From NCBI RefSeq assembly GCF_000311825.1, contig NZ_HE978570.1, positions 26,853 through 90,852 on the forward strand: 64,000 bases of DNA. The letters run 5' to 3'. The stretch comes from Peptoniphilus grossensis ph5 (GTDB lineage Bacteria; Bacillota; Clostridia; Tissierellales; Peptoniphilaceae). Made by a program: the position numbers and the translations under genes. The notes under the pieces were generated by a model. It did not search any database. It was not told the DNA's origin and worked only from the letters and a program-made list of their open reading frames with translations. Shown piece after piece: positions 13,193 through 51,203 of the stretch. The first letter of the stretch is position 1, and every line of letters begins with the position of its first letter.

Positions 13193-13392
13193 AAAAAAAG
13201 TCATCATCCCAAAGGACGATGACCGTGGTTCCACCTTAATTAAACTCAAGGGATTTAACGCATCCATACGCCATAGTTTGCTATGGGGCTCCAAGTTAGT
13301 TTTCAAAAATATAAAATTGGAAACTTGCACCAGCCGTTTCCTCTCTAAGAATTTTATATAATTTACTCTTCTTATCAAAGCCATTTTTAAAA
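13193..13392 (-). promoter_or_regulatory. T-box riboswitch of thrS (threonine)
   Basis: The minus-strand T-box sequence AAGGTGGAACCACG is at 13225-13238. It is followed by a terminator stem (13200-13210 with 13214-13223) and a T run. Stem I carries the usual GGTGCAAG distal loop, and an ACT (Thr) triplet at 13298-13300 lies in the probable specifier loop. The variable T-box base is A, which pairs with a U discriminator as in Gram-positive tRNA-Thr. A TATAAT at 13398-13403 gives a start near 13391. Confidence 0.92.
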
Positions 13393-39526: not shown

Positions 39527-40352
39527 TTAATCACCAAATAAAACCTTGTCTAAAATTTTTACTGCTCCATCGTTGTTGTTGTCGTAGTCAGACACAACAT
39601 CGGCCGCCTCTCTTAGTCTTTCAACTCCATTTTTCATGGCAATGCCAAGGCCAACAGACTTTATAAGCATTACATCGTTGGAGTCGTCGCCAATTGCTGC
39701 AACATCTTTTAAGTCAATGTTCCTAATTTCTGCGTATTTTTTTACGCCGTAAAATTTGTCGCCAGATTTTTGCAAGACTTCAAGCATCCACTTTGGCTCT
39801 CTTCTAATTTTCATGATGTGAAAATTAAATCTATCAGAAATTTCGTCTCTCATCCTATTTCTAAGGCCTACTAAATCGTCATGGCTGCCTGCAAAGACAA
39901 TGGAAAGAGGATTGCCCACTAAGTTGTCAAAATCATCTAATCCTAGATTTCTTCCCCTAAAGGCGTCCACATAAGTGCCCTCAAAATTTGTAAAATTCTT
40001 TTTCTTGTAGACAAGATCAATCCCGTCATCTCTCTATGTGAAGTGATGTAAAAACTTTGTCATTGTCATCAAAGGCCATGACCCTCTTTAAATCCTCGTC
40101 ACTAATTGGATTTACATAATGAACCTTGCCAGATAAATTATCTCTAATTACATTTCCATTGTTGCAAATTAAATCTATGTCAACCTTGTTTCCCACAAAT
40201 TTATGGGCAGAATAGTATTCTCTTCCCGTGGCTACCACTGGAATAATATTATTTGATTTTAGTTTTTTTACAAAGGATTCAAAACTCTCTGTAATGACCT
40301 TATCTGTAGTCAAAAGAGTTTCGTCTAAATCCATAGAAACCATTTTAATCAT
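39527..40352 (-). pseudogene. Cof-type HAD phosphatase, frameshifted at a dinucleotide run
   Basis: The N-terminal part (40026-40352) begins MIKMVSMDLDETLL, the HAD motif I, and stops after IER. The rest continues in another frame (DDGIDLVYKKK ... DAFRGRN) to 39527. It ends with the cap domain and motif IV GDDSNDVMLI. One GA repeat more at 40029-40035 (TCTCTCT on the plus strand) would restore a 275-residue protein, the normal Cof/HAD-IIB length. The frames join without loss. It is either a recent pseudogene, a sequencing error or a phase-variable gene. The gene lies between ychF and rbgA. Confidence 0.85.
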
Positions 40353-41592: not shown

Positions 41593-42090
41593 TTATATCC
41601 TATCCCCAAAATTGGATATTTTTCCATATCCATGTATCGGAGAATCGACTCCCCTCGTTAAATCTGTGTCCATTCTAAAAAAATACTTTCCATCTATATA
41701 ATGTAAATTATTAAATTGAGCACGATCTGACCCATTTAAAGACATATTTTTTTCTCCAACATAGTGGTATGACCAATTTCTATACGCTTTCTCATATAAA
41801 GAAATAACAAATGCTGGTGTAAAAGTAGTTCCTTCATAAGTAGAATTACAATAAATTGTCGTATAACTATTAGTTAATGTGAATTTATCAGAAGCTAGTC
41901 CTTGATAAAAGGAATAATCAAATGAACCGTCAGAGCTCATTCTATCTTCTCTACTCGCCCAATTAAAGATACAATCATCACTCTCCTTTTTTCCATCAAC
42001 GATTTCATTGCTTGTAGCAAATACACTAGAAGAGCAAATCAATATCATAATTGATACTAAAACAAATTTCTTACAAAACCTTTTTATCAT
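41593..42090 (-). CDS. Small secreted protein of unknown function
   Basis: 165 residues. Signal peptide 1-26 (KRFCKKF start, hydrophobic core, VFA-T cleavage). The mature protein is rich in aromatic residues, Ser, Asn and Asp and has two cysteines (in DDCIFNW and IYCNSTY), which could pair outside the cell. A strand-rich fold is suggested by YTTIYCNSTYEGTTFTPAFV and KYFFRMDTD. Its start overlaps the end of the VanZ-like gene upstream by twenty bases, so they are translated together. No family recognised. Confidence 0.75.
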   Translation of the reverse strand: MIKRFCKKFVLVSIMILICSSSVFATSNEIVDGKKESDDCIFNWASREDRMSSDGSFDYSFYQGLASDKFTLTNSYTTIYCNSTYEGTTFTPAFVISLYEKAYRNWSYHYVGEKNMSLNGSDRAQFNNLHYIDGKYFFRMDTDLTRGVDSPIHGYGKISNFGDRI

Positions 42091-42721
42091 TAAAACCTAC
42101 TAAATTTAACTTGAACGGAATTTTACAAATAACTTCAGCTGTAATAATAGCAGATAATAAACCTAATAAGATATTGTCTAAATTAAAGCTTTTGTATATA
42201 AAGAATTTCACCACTTCTAACGAAATAATAATAATTGAAATAAATATATAGTAATTTCTATGGTATTTAGTTTTGATAAAAATAAAAACTGGAATTAGAT
42301 AAATAATTGGAAATATAATAAATTTAAAAAAAGAAAAATAATTTAGTTTACTTGTTAAAGTCAAAAAATCATAAAAATAATTTATAACTGATTTAAATGG
42401 AATCACATTAACTGTTGGATAATTATAATTAATATTTCTGATAAAAATGAAAAATATAAAGAATATATATACGAAAATCGAAATATATTCTGTTATTTTT
42501 AATAATATTTTTCTTTCATTTCCATTTATCGATAAAACAACTAGATATGCCAGAACCAATAAAAATAATAATATTATAGAGAAGCGCATTAAAGTATCAT
42601 TATCAATAAATAATTTTCCTCTTATCATACCAGGTAAAACACTTATTAACATTACAAGTAATGACAATATACCCAAATAAAAACTTGTTAGATAGATTAA
42701 AGATAAAATTTTCTTTTTCAT
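42071..42721 (-). CDS. VanZ-like membrane protein (divergent)
   Basis: 216 residues with about six hydrophobic helices. The NVIPFKSVINYFYDF segment (about 106-120) and the FNLDNILLGLLSAIITAEVI segment (about 180-199) resemble the VanZ family NLIPF and D-D-N-G motifs. VanZ of the Enterococcus van cluster gives low teicoplanin resistance, but most VanZ-like proteins have no known role. AGGGGG precedes the ATG. It forms a two-gene unit with the secreted protein downstream. The family call is tentative because motif residues are diverged. Confidence 0.6.
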   Translation of the reverse strand: MKKKILSLIYLTSFYLGILSLLVMLISVLPGMIRGKLFIDNDTLMRFSIILLFLLVLAYLVVLSINGNERKILLKITEYISIFVYIFFIFFIFIRNINYNYPTVNVIPFKSVINYFYDFLTLTSKLNYFSFFKFIIFPIIYLIPVFIFIKTKYHRNYYIFISIIIISLEVVKFFIYKSFNLDNILLGLLSAIITAEVICKIPFKLNLVGFNDKKVL

Positions 42722-42890: not shown

Positions 42891-44258
42891 ATGAGTGCCA
42901 TCGTCATAAATGACCTGACAAAACGCAAGGGCAAGGAAAAAGTCTTATCAAATTTAAATTTAGAAATTTTAGATGGCGAATTTTTCTCTCTTCTTGGAAC
43001 AGAAAACTCCGGAAAGACAACTCTTGCTAGAATTATAATGGGATACTTAAAACCTGGTAGTGGATCTATTAGGGTTTATGATATGGATTCATTTAAGGAA
43101 TCAAAAGAAATAAAAGAAACTGTGTCCTTCGTATCTGAAGATATGATTTTCGATTCAAAGATAAAATCTTATACTTTATTAAAGAAGACACTTAGCGCAC
43201 ATGGTTTGTCTAACACAGAAGACATTGATGTCCTTTGTGATTATTTTGAATTTAATTCAAACCTTCGCATTTGCGACTTGAGAGATAGAGAAAGAAAACT
43301 CTTTGCAATTATTAATGCCTTAGTTATAAAACCAAGACTTTTAATTTTAGACTCTCCAGCAAAATTTTTAGAAGAAAAGGATATAGATAGACTCTTCTCT
43401 CATGTAAAGAGATTAAATGAAAGTGAAGGCTTAACAGTTTTACTACTCTCTGATTCTCTCAGAGAGGCAAAAAAATATTCTTCAAGAATTGCCTACTTGT
43501 CTGATGGAAAAATCCAAGACACTGAATACAATAATGTCAAGGCAGCTGGAGACAAGGTTTTAAAAATTGACTCTTACAGAGGAAATTTAAATTACTTTAC
43601 ATCTATTGGCGCAAGAATTATTAAGGATGAGGAAGATGAAACAATCCTCTACTATGATGGAGCCCTTCCTGAACTTTCAAAGGTGATCTATGAAGAAGCC
43701 CTTGAAAATTATGTACTTGAAGATGCAAAATTATCTGACAAGGTAAATGCTTACTACAAGGGAGAAAATGCAAAGCTTCCTAGAAGAAAAGCTCCTGCTC
43801 CAGTAAAAGATGTAGAAGAGACTCCTACAGAAAAAATTTCTAAAAGTGGTCTTGAAACTTCCGAAGTTAATGGAGTGACAGAAAGCACAATAAAAATTAG
43901 CGATGCAGAAAATAATTTTTCCGAAGTAGAAGGCGTCAATTTAGAAAATTCTGAAAAAGATGTAATTCACAACACAAAGACAAATCTTTTTGTCGATGAA
44001 GATAAAGTTGTTCTCGGAGAAGAAAATTCTCCTGAAATAAAAGAAGAAGTTTCTCCTGAATTAGAAATTGAAAAACCAGAAACAATTAATGAAGTTGAGC
44101 CTAAGCTAGAGGAAAACTTTGTTGATAATAAAGAAATTTTCCACGACCGTTCAGAAGAAAATAGAAAAGACGATACAATTATTTTTAAAACCTCTGATGA
44201 AGGCGTCTTTAATGCAACAGAAGAGACAAGGCTAAAGGAGGATAAAGATGATATTTAA
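42891..44258 (+). CDS. Degenerate ABC transporter ATPase with long acidic tail
   Basis: 455 residues from ATG 42891 (GAGGTGA at 42879-42885). The fold is that of an ABC ATPase, and Walker A is intact (GTENSGKTT, 36-44). Other catalytic elements are altered: Q-loop position reads VSED, the LSGGQ signature reads DLRDRERK (129-136), Walker B is LLILDSP with Ser for the catalytic Glu (155), and the switch histidine position is Asp (188). From about 310 to 455 runs a Glu/Asp/Ser/Asn-rich, probably disordered tail. The next gene, overlapping by eleven bases, is an ABC-2 permease, so this should be its cytoplasmic partner. Confidence 0.85.
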   Translation: MSAIVINDLTKRKGKEKVLSNLNLEILDGEFFSLLGTENSGKTTLARIIMGYLKPGSGSIRVYDMDSFKESKEIKETVSFVSEDMIFDSKIKSYTLLKKTLSAHGLSNTEDIDVLCDYFEFNSNLRICDLRDRERKLFAIINALVIKPRLLILDSPAKFLEEKDIDRLFSHVKRLNESEGLTVLLLSDSLREAKKYSSRIAYLSDGKIQDTEYNNVKAAGDKVLKIDSYRGNLNYFTSIGARIIKDEEDETILYYDGALPELSKVIYEEALENYVLEDAKLSDKVNAYYKGENAKLPRRKAPAPVKDVEETPTEKISKSGLETSEVNGVTESTIKISDAENNFSEVEGVNLENSEKDVIHNTKTNLFVDEDKVVLGEENSPEIKEEVSPELEIEKPETINEVEPKLEENFVDNKEIFHDRSEENRKDDTIIFKTSDEGVFNATEETRLKEDKDDI

Positions 44259-45087
44259 TATGGAATTTAAATCAAATTTTGCAAAGATGATATCTTGGGC
44301 AATCGTCCTAATAATTTTACTTGGACTTATGCTTGCTTTCTATCCTTTCCTTGCAGAGTCACAAATGAACTCACTATTTAATTCAGTTATGGAAAGCTTT
44401 AACGAGCCAACTAGAAATATTTTGGGAGTTTATGAAGGCATGGATATAGTAAATATTGGCGATTACCTTGCCCTTGTTTACCATTACCTTGCAGTTTTAA
44501 TATTTGTATTTGCAATGCAACTTGGAGCAAGTTCCCTTGCTAAGGAACAAAGCTCTGGCAACATTGAATACATTTATTCAAATCCAATTTCAAAATCAGA
44601 AATCGTAACAGGAAAAATTGCTGCCAACTTGTTGACTTACATCTTATTTTTAATAATTATGGGACTTGCAACAGTTGGACTTGTTCTTGGAATTTCTTCC
44701 ATAGGAATTGGAGCAAGTGATGCTGCTGAAATAACAAGCTTTGAAATTTTTGAAGCAGTAGTAAAAGTTTTCGTTGGACTACTTGGCTCAGGTCTAGTAT
44801 TTATGTCCATTGGCTACTTCTTCTCTTCAATGTCAAAATCTTCACTACACCAAGATGCAGTAGCTGCCCTATTTGTATTCTTAATTGTACTACTTACAAT
44901 TGTTGGAAAAGTTATGGGCGATGTATTTGGCATGGTTGTATCTTACTTCCCTAACGAAGCCTTTAGACCTTGTAGCTTTGTCAGTGCAGACCTAAACCTA
45001 TTTGGCATAATAGCAAATGCAGTAATCTTTATCCTCATGATAGTATTGACTTACACAATATATTCAAGTAAAGAACTTAAATATTAA
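44248..45087 (+). CDS. ABC-2 type permease
   Basis: 279 residues with six membrane segments in the ABC-2 exporter layout: helix at about 13-32, large first loop, then helices near 75-95, 120-145, 170-195, 210-235 and 250-270. The conserved LAKEQSSGNIEYIYSNPISKSEIVTGK segment between helices 2 and 3 contacts the ATPase. AAGGAGG sits in the ATPase tail coding sequence just upstream. Substrate unknown. A terminator ends the two-gene unit. Confidence 0.88.
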   Translation: MIFNMEFKSNFAKMISWAIVLIILLGLMLAFYPFLAESQMNSLFNSVMESFNEPTRNILGVYEGMDIVNIGDYLALVYHYLAVLIFVFAMQLGASSLAKEQSSGNIEYIYSNPISKSEIVTGKIAANLLTYILFLIIMGLATVGLVLGISSIGIGASDAAEITSFEIFEAVVKVFVGLLGSGLVFMSIGYFFSSMSKSSLHQDAVAALFVFLIVLLTIVGKVMGDVFGMVVSYFPNEAFRPCSFVSADLNLFGIIANAVIFILMIVLTYTIYSSKELKY

Positions 45088-45093
45088 TTTTAG

Positions 45094-45125
45094 AAACTAC
45101 CTTGTAAAACGAGGTAGTTTTTTTG
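45094..45125 (+). terminator. Terminator after the ABC-2 permease
   Basis: Stem AAACTACCT/AGGTAGTTT (45094-45102 with 45112-45120), nine-base loop, then T run. Confidence 0.9.
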
Positions 45126-45213: not shown

Positions 45214-45735
45214 ATGGATAATAAAGACTTGATAGAAAGGCTAAAAAATAAAGATGAAGATGCCCTTTATATATTTATTGAAGAGTACGGAAAAATATTA
45301 AAGGGTGTTATTTCAAAAACGCTTTGGAAATATCCAAACCTTTGGGAAGAAGCCATGAATGACGCACTTTTAAGTATATGGCAAAATATTAAATACTTTG
45401 ACCCAAGTAGGTCTACTTTTAAAAATTGGTGTGCCCTTGTTGCTAAGTATAGAGCCATAGATATCCTTAGAAAAGAAATTAAATTTGAAAGCCTTAGACT
45501 AGATGAAGATTCAAAAATCGTCGATTCAGATTTATCTTCAAATCTAGAAATAGAAGAAATTCTTTCACTTTTAAATGACGAAGACAAAAAACTTTTTGAA
45601 AATATTTTTATCCATGGGCTCTCCTATAAAGAGGCAGCATCTAAACAAAATATTTCCACAGCAAATGCCTATAAAAAAGTTAGCAGAGGAAGAAATTTTT
45701 TAAAAAAATGGAGGGAAAGTTTTTATGAAAAATAA
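45214..45735 (+). CDS. ECF-type RNA polymerase sigma factor
   Basis: A 173-residue sigma-70 family protein with regions 2 and 4 only. Region 2 includes FIEEYGKILKGVISKTLW and FDPSRSTFKNWCALVAKYRAIDILRK. Region 4 includes LSYKEAASKQNISTANAYKKVSRGRNFLKKW, a helix-turn-helix. GGAGGA lies before the ATG. It overlaps the downstream anti-sigma gene by eleven bases. This class usually transcribes its own operon in response to envelope stress. Targets cannot be read here. Confidence 0.93.
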   Translation: MDNKDLIERLKNKDEDALYIFIEEYGKILKGVISKTLWKYPNLWEEAMNDALLSIWQNIKYFDPSRSTFKNWCALVAKYRAIDILRKEIKFESLRLDEDSKIVDSDLSSNLEIEEILSLLNDEDKKLFENIFIHGLSYKEAASKQNISTANAYKKVSRGRNFLKKWRESFYEK

Positions 45736-46765
45736 TATTTATGATGAGTTAAACGACATGAAAATGGAATATGAAGAAGTTCCTCTTAATGATTTTGAAA
45801 GAGAAAATCTAAAAAGAACTGTGAGATCCTTAAAAATAAAAAACAAGAAAAATAAGTTTAATAAAAAAGTGGCGGCAATAGCAGCATCACTTATTTTAGT
45901 TTTTGGCATATCAAATTACACATCCGGTGGCTATGTCTTTGCTAAGACAAGAGAATTAGCAAGTAACTTTAAAATTACTTTATCTAATGCCATGGGACTA
46001 TCAAGGGAAGTTGATGAGTACAGCGTAAATTTAAACGAAGCTTTTGAAATAAATGGCAAAAAATATATTTTTGATAAATTTATTATTGAAGATAATAATT
46101 TATACACTGTAATTTTGAGCTTAAATGACACAGAAAAAATTCTCTCTGGAGAAGTTTCCTTAAGTGAACTCAAAGTTAATGGCAAGAAAAATCAAATTCT
46201 TAGCTCCAGTGGCTCTGGATATACTTTACCTGAAGATAAAAAAGTAAATGTCTATACTCTTAAATATGATTTAGAAGACTCCTTGCCAAAAGAAGGCAAA
46301 GTTAATTTAGAATTTTTCTTCGATGAATTTTTAGGAAACGAGAAAAAAATTAGTCTCTCAACAAATATAGATATGTCACAAATGCAAATGAATAAAAATC
46401 TTATAGCAAAGGACTTTACTATTCCAAATACAAATAATATTGTCATTGAAAGCTTTACTACAAGCCCAGCTTCACAAAAAATTGTACTAACCTATCCTGA
46501 CACCGAAGATGGATATATTTATTCAATAAAAGCCAGAGATTCCAAAGATAGATTTGTTTATTTTGAAACATGTGAAGCAGAAAAAAACAAATCCAACCTT
46601 TACTTCTCTCCAGTCACTAGCAAAGTTACTGCCGATGAACTTTTAAATGAAATAAAAACACTAAAATGCCAATTATACAGAGTGACAGTCCACAGCTATG
46701 ACGGCAAAGAAATGCTTATTGGAGAACAAGCAATTGGTGATGAGTTCACTCTCACTTTAAAATAA
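45725..46765 (+). CDS. DUF4179 membrane anti-sigma factor
   Basis: 346 residues. A cytoplasmic N-terminus of about 55 residues, one membrane helix at about 56-73 (KVAAIAASLILVFGISNY), then a large external portion with the DUF4179 beginning (VFAKTRELASNFKITLSNAMG). The rest is strand-rich, probably a sensor. The gene overlaps the sigma factor, the standard sigma/anti-sigma order, so it most likely holds the sigma factor at the membrane until a surface signal arrives. A terminator follows. Confidence 0.88.
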   Translation: MKNNIYDELNDMKMEYEEVPLNDFERENLKRTVRSLKIKNKKNKFNKKVAAIAASLILVFGISNYTSGGYVFAKTRELASNFKITLSNAMGLSREVDEYSVNLNEAFEINGKKYIFDKFIIEDNNLYTVILSLNDTEKILSGEVSLSELKVNGKKNQILSSSGSGYTLPEDKKVNVYTLKYDLEDSLPKEGKVNLEFFFDEFLGNEKKISLSTNIDMSQMQMNKNLIAKDFTIPNTNNIVIESFTTSPASQKIVLTYPDTEDGYIYSIKARDSKDRFVYFETCEAEKNKSNLYFSPVTSKVTADELLNEIKTLKCQLYRVTVHSYDGKEMLIGEQAIGDEFTLTLK

Positions 46766-46837: not shown

Positions 46838-47659
46838 TTATGCGATTTTTTCTATTTGTTTCATATTTTCTAAACTTTTTAATTTTTCTGATTCAATGTT
46901 ATTTGATTCTTCAATTTTTTCGTTGTAAATTCTATTTAATTCTTCTTCTGTGACTTCATTTGGAAGGATGTCTAGGACAACTTCACCCTTATTTAGCATT
47001 ATTATTCTGTCAGAATATTCTATGGCGTTCTTAAGGTTGTGAGTAATCATAAGTGTTGTGATCTTTTCTTTTTTTATTAAGTCGTTAGTCTTATCCATGA
47101 TTAACTTTGATGTCTTTGGATCAAGGGCTGCTGTGTGTTCGTCAAGTAAAAGTATCTTTGGTTTTTTTACTGTCGCCATTAATAGAGATAGTGATTGTCT
47201 TTGTCCACCTGATAAAAATTTTACTTGTGTCTTTAATTTGTTTTCAAGTCCAAGGTCAATGGATTTTAGTTTTTCAATTATTTTTTCATTGTTGTTCTTG
47301 TCGATTAATTTTTTGAAGGTAAATTTGTTGCCCTTCTTAAATGCCATAGACATATTTTCCAAAATATTTAAGCTTTGGCAAACTCCCTTTGATGGGTCTT
47401 GGTTTACCTTGCCAATGTCAATTGCCCTCTTGTCTTCAGATAATTTTGCAATGTCCACATCGTCTAAGAGAATTTCTCCCTTGTCTGGGTTAAGTGAACC
47501 ACTTATCATGTTAAATAGTGTGGACTTGCCACAGCCATTTGGTCCTAAAATTGCAACGCACTTATTGTCTTCGATTTCAAGGGAAAAGTTATTAAATACT
47601 TGATTTTCTTCTTCCATTCCCTTGTAAAAAGTTTTTGATATATTATTAATTTTTAGCAT
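46838..47659 (-). CDS. ABC transporter ATPase, aromatic amino acid uptake (predicted)
   Basis: 273 residues. Complete ABC motifs: Walker A GPNGCGKST (about 38-46), Q-loop GKVNQD, signature LSGGQRQSLSL, Walker B ILLLDEH and switch ITHNLKNA. It belongs to the ABC family that accompanies ABC_sub_bind lipoproteins (the TrpXYZ-like group). It overlaps the permease by fourteen bases and shares its T-box transcript. Substrate (probably tyrosine or other aromatic amino acid) is inferred from the T-box upstream. Confidence 0.9.
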   Translation of the reverse strand: MLKINNISKTFYKGMEEENQVFNNFSLEIEDNKCVAILGPNGCGKSTLFNMISGSLNPDKGEILLDDVDIAKLSEDKRAIDIGKVNQDPSKGVCQSLNILENMSMAFKKGNKFTFKKLIDKNNNEKIIEKLKSIDLGLENKLKTQVKFLSGGQRQSLSLLMATVKKPKILLLDEHTAALDPKTSKLIMDKTNDLIKKEKITTLMITHNLKNAIEYSDRIIMLNKGEVVLDILPNEVTEEELNRIYNEKIEESNNIESEKLKSLENMKQIEKIA

Positions 47660-48530
47660 TTTCTTCCCTCTTTCCCTTTAATACAGATAGCCCCTTGGAG
47701 GAGACATTGTTATAAACTATAAAGAATACTACTATTATTGCAGTTATTCCCTTTAAATCACTTGGAGCAAGTCCAATGTAAAGGGCTATGCCGTAAATGA
47801 TTCTATAAATTATTGCTCCGATTATTGCCCTTGTGGTTCTATTTAAAAAGTTTGCGTTCTTTAAAAAGGCATCACCAATGATAACTGATGCAAGAGCTGA
47901 TACGATTATGGCTTGACCCATAGTAATGTCTGCGTAGCCATTTGACTGTGCCATTAAGGCTCCTGCCAAGGCTGCAAGGGCATTTGATATTATAAGACCT
48001 ATGGCTATATACTTGTCTGGATTTTTGCCAAGAGCCTTTACTAGACTTTCATTGTCCCCCGTTGCCAATAAGAGGTAGCCTCTTTCTGTCTTTAAGAACC
48101 AGTCCAAGGCAATTTTTATTATTAGGGTCATAATAATTAGGATTACAATCTTTGGTAGGCTTTCAAAAAGTTGAAAAACAGTTTTGTAATCAAAGAAGGT
48201 AACATTTGGCGTGCCAGTGATTCTCAAGTTAACTGAATATAAAAATGTCATAGTCAAAATCCCTGCAAGGATTGCCTGAATTTTAAATTTTCTAAACAAA
48301 ACATAAGTTATATATCCGCCTAGGCCACCTGCCATAAATGAAAATAGCATTGCAAGTAGTGGGTTCATTCCAAGTGTTAGCATCTTTGCAAAGACAAAGG
48401 CTCCCAGTGGAAAGGTACCTTCCACAGACATATCTGGAAAATCTAAAATTTTAAAGGTTATTACTACTCCTATTGTCAATATGGAAAATATAAGTCCCAT
48501 GACAATGGATTCCATTATTACTGAATTCAA
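47646..48530 (-). CDS. ABC transporter permease, aromatic amino acid uptake (predicted)
   Basis: 294 residues with eight or nine hydrophobic segments, of the branched-chain-type permease family (BPD_transp_2). The EGTFPLGAFVFAK segment (about 36-48) and LMAQSNGYADITMGQAIIVSALASVIIG (about 192-219) are typical. The start is TTG at 48530, seven bases after AGGAGG; the next ATG would lose five residues. It sits between the binding protein and ATPase genes of the Tyr T-box operon. Confidence 0.9.
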   Translation of the reverse strand: MNSVIMESIVMGLIFSILTIGVVITFKILDFPDMSVEGTFPLGAFVFAKMLTLGMNPLLAMLFSFMAGGLGGYITYVLFRKFKIQAILAGILTMTFLYSVNLRITGTPNVTFFDYKTVFQLFESLPKIVILIIMTLIIKIALDWFLKTERGYLLLATGDNESLVKALGKNPDKYIAIGLIISNALAALAGALMAQSNGYADITMGQAIIVSALASVIIGDAFLKNANFLNRTTRAIIGAIIYRIIYGIALYIGLAPSDLKGITAIIVVFFIVYNNVSSKGLSVLKGKREENAKN

Positions 48531-49574: not shown

Positions 49575-49842
49575 AAAAAGCCTTTCATCCACATTGGGAC
49601 GAAAGACTGACTTCGCGGTACCACCCGATTTTATAATCTAATAAGATTACCTCACTTTAAGGTCTAACAACCTCTAGCCTCAGTTAACGGTGGCTTCCGT
49701 ACTTGCCTACTAATTTCAACAAATAAGCTTTAGAGTGTATATTAAACTTTTGTGTATTGCCTTGCACCAGACGGCAACTCTCTTAAATCATCAAAAATTC
49801 TTTTTTCTCTTTCAACGCTTTTATTAAATTAAAATGATTATA
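49575..49842 (-). promoter_or_regulatory. T-box riboswitch with TAC (Tyr) specifier, with promoter upstream
   Basis: T-box sequence GGGTGGTACCGCG at 49614-49626, terminator stem 49580-49590 with 49596-49606 and T run. Stem I has the GGTGCAAG loop. The specifier position (before ACTCTAAAGC, matching the layout of Bacillus tyrS) is TAC at 49737-49739. The variable T-box base is U, fitting A73 of tRNA-Tyr and not G73 of tRNA-Trp. Promoter TTGACT (49860-49865), 17 bases, TATAAT (49837-49842). Confidence 0.88.
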
Positions 49843-50933: not shown

Positions 50934-51203
50934 TAAAAAAATCCTTCACCCCATATAGGGCGAAGGATTCGCGGTACCACCTAAGTTCGAAATATAAATA
51001 TTTCCTCAATAAAGATCTAACAATCTCTAGTCCATGATAACGGTGACTGCCGTGAAGATCTACTTGTTTTCAATCTTCATGCTTTAGAGTGAATATATGA
51101 TATTAACTTGTCTGTGGGCTCTCACCATCCCCACTCTCTTTGAGACTTATTAAATACCTTTTTCTCTTTCTTCGCATTTATTATTTTATTAGAAAGTATT
51201 ATA
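50934..51203 (-). promoter_or_regulatory. T-box riboswitch with TTC (Phe) specifier, with promoter upstream
   Basis: T-box sequence AGGTGGTACCGCG at about 50970-50982, terminator stem 50941-50950 with 50960-50969 and T run. At the position equivalent to the Tyr T-box specifier (before ACTCTAAAGC) the triplet is TTC at 51091-51093. The variable base U fits A73 of tRNA-Phe. Promoter TTGACA (51221-51226), 17 bases, TATAAT (51198-51203). Confidence 0.88.

Follow-up and report, generated by a model that had tools for sequence, protein, structure and literature searches.

We analysed a two-gene ATP-binding cassette (ABC) transporter locus of Peptoniphilus grossensis ph5, at positions 42891-45087 of a 64,000-nucleotide stretch (the window; contig NZ_HE978570.1, positions 26,853 to 90,852 of the forward strand, assembly GCF_000311825.1). 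A preliminary description, made from the letters of the window, had reported an ABC exporter with a damaged ATPase and an acidic tail, and its coordinates and gene pair were both borne out (Table 1). The first gene encodes the ATPase, which is a true ABC ATPase by fold and profile, because the Pfam family ABC_tran matches residues 19-157 (E 2.1e-13). The second gene shares 11 bases with the first and encodes a permease that matches the Pfam family ABC2_membrane_2 (E 1.2e-17). A terminator does follow the permease gene, as had been described: none of 200 shuffled sequences was as stable as this hairpin, which was not listed by a simple terminator scan of the window.

The motifs expected of a hydrolysing nucleotide-binding domain (NBD), namely an LSGGQ-like signature, a catalytic Glu and a switch His, were all absent from the window ATPase, and its Walker A was intact, in agreement with the preliminary description. 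At a cut-off of E 1e-40 or better, orthologues of the pair were found in 46 of 130 genomes searched in the family Peptoniphilaceae, belonging to 15 of 39 genera. The alignment of homologues that had been proposed as a check thus showed altered motifs recurring in 46 genomes, and because of this recurrence a chance change or a sequencing slip in the window was ruled out. The switch residue was Asp in 32 orthologues, Asn in five, Glu in four, Gln in two, Ser in two and Lys in one, and His was found in none of the 46. The signature retained its Gly in one orthologue and its Ser in five, never both together, and LSxG was intact in 0/46. The catalytic Glu was gone in 27 of the 46, where Asn (12), Ser (7), Asp (6), Lys (1) or Gln (1) took its place, and was still present in 19. 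Six orthologues had a P-loop changed at a key residue (the Gly that precedes the Lys, the Lys itself or the Ser/Thr). The Gly before Lys was altered in genomes G096, G107, G144 and G145, both Lys and Thr in G109, and Thr in G001 as well as in G144; the Lys was missing only in G109. G144 and G145 had changes in Walker A and also at the Walker B Asp. The ATPase of G139 was counted as having an intact Walker A, since its frame break lies upstream and was seen on reading three frames.

Normal relatives of the pair provided the standard for these changes. Each of the 15 canonical NBD sequences in our comparison (the partial NBDs G234 and G096b were left out) carried the catalytic Glu, the switch His and LSxGN. 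The preliminary description had counted the Q-loop among the losses together with the signature, the catalytic Glu and the switch His. The last three stood, but we rejected the absent Q-loop Gln as a mark of degeneration, because all 15 full-length canonical relatives are without it as well, with Ser at this position, versus Glu in 29 and Gln in 9 of the 46 degenerate orthologues. Canonical single-permease ABC-2 pairs (G205, G039, G237 and G229) have the same NBD-permease gene order as the window and possess the Walker B Glu, the switch His and LSxGN, but their ATPases, of 292-305 aa, are tail-less, unlike that of the window; the G039 pair is 28% (NBD) and 30% (permease) identical to the window pair. 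We found no ychF beside the canonical pairs in the stretches read. All 15 canonical NBDs agree at 73 positions; of these, 22 were lost in the orthologues, 12 were kept at 90% or more (K42 and D154 among them) and 39 fell between. Another 22 positions reached at least 90% conservation in the orthologues without doing so among the canonical NBDs, and 14 of these differ from the canonical sequences in their commonest residue (e.g. K75, T100, F119, N142, K217 and D221).

The permease gene lies immediately 3' of the NBD gene in all 46 orthologous loci, so that an ABC2_membrane permease gene adjoins the NBD gene throughout, as expected of an ABC-2 exporter, and ychF is nearby in 42, with extra genes between ychF and the pair in some genomes, including that of the window. 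A search of relatives recovered the pair in 14/14 genomes of the window's genus. Homologues with normal motifs at the same locus had been named as a finding that would count against the preliminary description; 0/46 orthologues were of this kind, and relatives with normal motifs occurred in stretches in which no ychF was found. On a permease tree built by a quick method and without bootstrap, the 46 orthologues lie on one side of a branch with a Shimodaira-Hasegawa approximate likelihood-ratio value of 99, and G127 forms a long branch of unsure position. Because the 46 make up one side of this branch and all are altered, the loss of the switch His and of the signature would most simply be ancestral to this clade, with further losses repeated later; along the tree we counted seven changes of the catalytic Glu and four of Walker A.

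We estimated the ratio of nonsynonymous to synonymous substitution rates (dN/dS) within the window's genus, from pairs that are not independent of each other. The NBD core had a median of 0.083 (range 0.044-0.284; 63 of 91 pairs usable), compared to 0.121 for the permease (81/91 pairs), 0.070 for ychF (74/78 pairs) and 0.519 for the tail (range 0.319-1.419; 82/91 pairs). Pairs with dS outside 0.05-1.5, or for which it was not computable, were dropped (NBD 28/91, tail 9/91, permease 10/91, ychF 4/78). A further eight pairs, all but one from other genera, gave 0.021-0.196 for the NBD and 0.043-0.282 for the permease, values that are rough because dS was often >1. Three pairs of another genus had an NBD dN/dS of 0.021-0.029, and the two highest values, 0.159 and 0.196, came from pairs with an altered P-loop. 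The NBD and the permease are under strong purifying selection, and the statement that the locus is not the product of random decay was upheld by the 46 orthologous pairs and the NBD median. Given the low dN/dS, the positions conserved only in the clade and a conserved permease segment (Table 1) that is presumed to couple to the NBD, selection acts on the fold, and probably also on the contact with the permease, rather than on catalysis.

Table 1. Features of the degenerate ABC-2 exporter locus (window positions)
Feature	Position	Strand	Remarks
Degenerate ABC ATPase (pseudo-NBD) with acidic tail, 455 aa	42891..44258	+	open reading frame (ORF)
Walker A GTENSGKTT, intact	42996..43022	+	intact in 40/46 orthologues
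Q-loop region SFVSED, Glu at Gln position	43125..43142	+	Ser in canonical relatives
Signature region CDLRDRERK, motif lost	43272..43298	+	LSxGN in canonical relatives
Walker B RLLILDS, Ser replaces catalytic Glu	43335..43355	+	Asp154 kept
Switch region LLLSDS, Asp188 replaces His	43440..43457	+	
Acidic tail, residues 302-455	43794..44255	+	154 residues, 45 Asp/Glu, 18 Lys/Arg
Thr motif DDTIIF (Thr429), candidate PASTA-kinase phospho-Thr site	44169..44186	+	
Last tail codons, Shine-Dalgarno (aaaggagg) and permease start	44234..44258	+	sequence, alignment
ABC-2 permease, 279 aa, six long helices	44248..45087	+	ORF
Conserved permease segment KEQSSGNIEYIYSNPISKSEIVTGK	44542..44616	+	alignment of 30/46 permeases
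Terminator hairpin and U-run	45092..45122	+	14 pairs, -15.9 kcal/mol, z -5.0

Structures of both proteins were predicted with AlphaFold2. The permease model had a predicted local distance difference test score (pLDDT) of 86, with six long helices, and its best Foldseek matches were permease-sized chains of NosFY/NosDFY (probability 1.00, with a weak E value of 3.1e-3). The NBD model was confident up to about residue 300 and gave a best Foldseek E value of 2.5e-22, with NosF-sized chains among the first matches. The NosFY (NosDFY) ABC-2 exporters, which belong to the same Pfam families, are thus the nearest solved structures to the permease and among the best for the NBD, and the NosFY-type NBD, like that of the window, carries an additional small domain at its C terminus. 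A structure of NosDFY exists for an E154Q mutant; we take this residue to be the catalytic Glu, which the window ATPase lacks. The pair classes as an ABC-2 exporter on its fold and gene order, and by the features tested its NBD is not that of a hydrolysing transporter.

The tail of the window ATPase is indeed acidic and predicted to be disordered, as proposed in the preliminary description, with a pLDDT below 50 over its full 154 residues. Proteins longer than 330 aa were classed as tailed (37 of the 46 orthologues), and only these were scanned for motifs. The catalytic Glu was present in 8/9 tail-less versus 11/37 tailed orthologues, and kinship-independent pairs were too few to judge a link. 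The tails align poorly across genera, yet they share a Thr motif: DDTIIF in the window, and DETIVI, EDTVVV and EETQVF elsewhere. The pattern [DEN]T[IVMQK][IVFKQ][FIVAY] occurred in 30/37 tails compared to a mean of 1.9 in shuffled tails, and in 9 of 10 genus representatives compared to 0.45. Its density was 7.4 matches per 1000 residues in the tails (36 in 4,879 residues) versus 0.22 across 686 further ORFs from these loci (41 in 187,833 residues). A narrower pattern taken from the window's genus was recovered in 7 of 23 tails of other genera, with 0.11 expected, and in 3 of 9 genus representatives, with 0.04 expected. We set aside the C-terminal KEDKDDI as a protein motif, since its codons double as the ribosome-binding site and start of the permease gene and its conservation requires no function in the protein.

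The site letters of IreB, GarA/OdhI and Listeria ReoM suggested that the Thr motif might be a phosphorylation site, and the ReoM genes of these genomes served to test this idea. All 22 genomes searched encode ReoM, and 16 of them carry the site [NEQ]TQ[VI]FEK. A matrix built solely from the 22 ReoM sites scored the tails above their shuffles (Fisher p 3.4e-7, 10 genus representatives), and in G014 the tail reads EETQVFEK versus FETQIFEK in the ReoM of the same genome. The tail motif thus resembles the phospho-Thr sites of ReoM and IreB; ReoM is a small stand-alone protein, and the tail may be phosphorylated in a similar manner, judging from its letters. In Listeria, Thr7 is the only residue of ReoM that PrkA phosphorylates, and cells stop growing when the T7A variant is expressed (PMC7286690). 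A kinase domain and PASTA domains occur in one ORF in 22/22 genomes (in G096 the kinase domain is partial, being split between contigs), so both a Thr site resembling that of a known PASTA-kinase substrate and the kinase itself are present in the cell. Each of the 22 genomes also encodes exactly one FHA protein. An FtsW/RodA gene (PF01098) lies directly 3' of the FHA gene in all eight loci read (L258-L265), a gene order that suggests phospho-Thr control of wall synthesis in the Peptoniphilus family. The two FHA proteins that we read as protein have hydrophobic N-terminal residues that presumably anchor them in the membrane.

The reading that we favour, at somewhat short of an even chance, is that an ABC-2 exporter lost ATP hydrolysis in the ancestor of the clade and was kept as a gate or scaffold, with the tail acting as a phospho-switch in the tailed species. 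The complex would consist of two NBDs and two permeases, assembled as in the ancestral exporter, with both composite ATP sites dead; the NBDs would hold or gate the permease, ATP would be at most a structural or sensing ligand, and the whole would serve as a gate or scaffold rather than as an ATP-driven pump. In tailed species a PASTA kinase of the PrkC type would phosphorylate the Thr motif, and the phospho-Thr would be read by the single FHA protein of the cell, shifting the state or the partners of the complex. The position of the FHA gene before an FtsW/RodA gene would tie the complex to cell-wall control. It is possible, but doubtful, that the whole history was a single conversion of an exporter family to a pseudo-transporter that was then rewired through its tail into a PASTA-kinase/FHA wall circuit; tight ATP binding may be dispensable, because some lineages have an altered P-loop.

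Several points weigh against the favoured reading. The tail is absent in 9/46 orthologues and the motif in 7/37 tails, so a phospho-switch cannot be the common core, and the core function therefore lies in the NBD-permease complex itself. Overall constraint on the tail is weak (dN/dS 0.52), both tail patterns were devised after all tails had been inspected, and just 5 of the 10 genus representatives reached p <0.05 individually in the ReoM-matrix test. A fixed PrkC motif is not established, because a Clostridioides difficile phosphoproteome (PMC9674922) showed enrichment only of GXT near phospho-Thr and no signature specific to PrkC-dependent sites. The catalytic Glu that persists in 19/46 orthologues makes residual turnover possible in some members, and we found no biochemistry on any member of the clade.

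Retention, in most species, of the residues that contact Mg-ATP could instead point to a regulator that binds ATP without hydrolysing it, the ATP level setting the permease open or closed and the tail being secondary. CFTR and SUR are models for such nucleotide-gated ABC proteins. The Walker B Asp is present in 43/46 orthologues and the P-loop intact in 40/46 despite the lost catalytic residues, K42 and D154 are among the canonical positions kept at 90% or more, and the P-loop Lys is missing in a single genome. We nevertheless regard this explanation as unlikely, given that the six altered P-loops arose through four changes on the tree, that three pairs covering five of the six still had a dN/dS of 0.145-0.196, and that the signature Ser and Gly, normally required for ATP sandwiching, are lost. 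The earlier proposal of nucleotide binding without cycling is plausible in view of the many intact P-loops and Walker B Asp residues, but it is less well supported as a property common to all orthologues, because six have an altered P-loop, even if one alone lacks the Lys. That the pair is still a pump, by slow hydrolysis or by transport driven by ATP binding with acidic switch and Q-loop residues taking part, appears improbable. The acidic switch residue in 36/46 orthologues (Asp 32, Glu 4) and the frequent Glu at the Q-loop position look non-random, and the 19 orthologues that keep the catalytic Glu would fit; on the other hand, where this Glu is lost the substitute varies between N, S, D, K and Q, and in G144 and G145 the Walker B Asp is altered along with Walker A.

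The preliminary description had also suggested that the ATPase works with a second one, and a heteromeric exporter with a catalytically normal ATPase encoded elsewhere would be consistent with the 68 additional ABC ATPase matches in the window's genome. Similar changes are known from the degenerate site of ABCB11 (S474E, a lost Glu, G1178R and Q1180E; PMC7544095). Other ABC ATPases do occur within 8 kb of the pair (30 genes in 16/46 neighbourhoods), but 12 of these neighbourhoods, with 24 of the genes, are from the window's genus, in which they lie on the other strand and in other gene groups, and 30/46 neighbourhoods have none. No local partner ATPase recurred beside the pair across genera in the 8-kb neighbourhoods of the 46 loci (orphan ATPases were not searched for genome-wide). 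The ATPase at 46838-47659 of the window, which has normal motifs by eye, is grouped with an importer permease and a binding protein. Known degenerate-site exporters retain one standard composite site, whereas here both sites of such a dimer would be damaged. A normal partner should not restore a standard site, on structural grounds, because one site would be without the Glu and His and the other without the signature. The suggestion of a second ATPase thus gained no support from the 46 neighbourhoods, and we consider it distinctly improbable. The pair could also be a dispensable exporter in the course of slow decay, which would account for the six lineages with an altered P-loop, the frame breaks in the pair in draft genomes G137 and G139, and the 84 of 130 family genomes with no match at the threshold used. 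The NBD dN/dS (at most 0.284 in the genus and 0.021-0.196 in the eight further pairs) and the presence of the pair in every genome of the window's genus disfavour decay, which we regard as highly improbable.

Degenerate ABC sites are usually discussed as a single bad site paired with a good one. FtsE retains canonical motifs and FtsEX has a Type VII permease, unlike the window pair, and the NBD of Rv1747 is normal, unlike the degenerate one here. Degenerate-site heterodimeric exporters and ABCB11 have likewise lost the catalytic Glu, and charged substitutions occur in their signature and next to their Q-loop Gln (PMC7544095), but they keep one working composite site, whereas the window pair has one NBD gene in which all three hydrolysis motifs are lost. 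FtsEX has been described as an ABC complex that recruits proteins and regulates wall hydrolysis (PMC7468199), and the window complex may similarly act on partners. Rv1747 of Mycobacterium tuberculosis is an ABC exporter in an operon with the Ser/Thr kinase PknF, by which it is positively modulated (PMC3908365 and PMC5549992); it bears FHA domains itself, whereas a separate protein carries the FHA domain in the window system. The pair resembles FtsEX and Rv1747 in these respects but was assigned to neither type. The part of the open-access literature covered yielded no description of a homomeric ABC exporter in which both sites are dead, which is weak evidence of absence. The 46 orthologues form a natural series, from loss of the signature and switch His to loss of the Glu and the P-loop too, with the permease conserved throughout. 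This series makes it possible to ask what an ABC complex does without an ATPase cycle, and whether kinase control has replaced the cycle. If the favoured reading is true, a candidate PASTA-kinase target is added in Peptoniphilus and its relatives.

Outside the clade, a permease-profile search gave weaker matches in seven additional family genomes, and no ychF was seen in the stretches read around them. The NBD motifs were normal in G095, G118 and G119, G133 had a partial NBD with the Glu, and in G120 no NBD lay directly before the permease. The other two of the seven, G099 and G100 (L267 and L268), belong to another genus and carry, together with a permease, a degenerate NBD that is more diverged (LSRRERAKL, LDSPFTYL, switch His absent), perhaps an independent loss judging by these letters. 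G096 has, besides its degenerate pair, a relative (L220, G096:C22) with a partial NBD at a contig end that keeps the Glu and the His.

Sigma-factor and DUF4179-like genes (45214-46765) were rejected as members of the unit; they lie past the terminator and occur in 8/46 and 9/46 neighbourhoods, respectively. Between ychF and the ATPase gene, the window has two ORFs of 165 and 216 aa on the minus strand (41593-42721), and the same interval holds no ORF of 70 aa or more in 10/13 sister genomes; the 216-aa ORF matched nothing in Pfam or NCBIfam at E 0.001. In sister genomes a phosphatase-like gene forms a single ORF of 272-278 aa, which in the window is split into two ORFs on the minus strand (39527-40352). 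The minus strand of the window also carries three T-box leaders (Rfam RF00230), at 13209-13387, 49592-49824 and 50953-51181, and the latter two precede binding-protein genes of an apparent importer (permease 47646-48530, ATPase 46838-47659).

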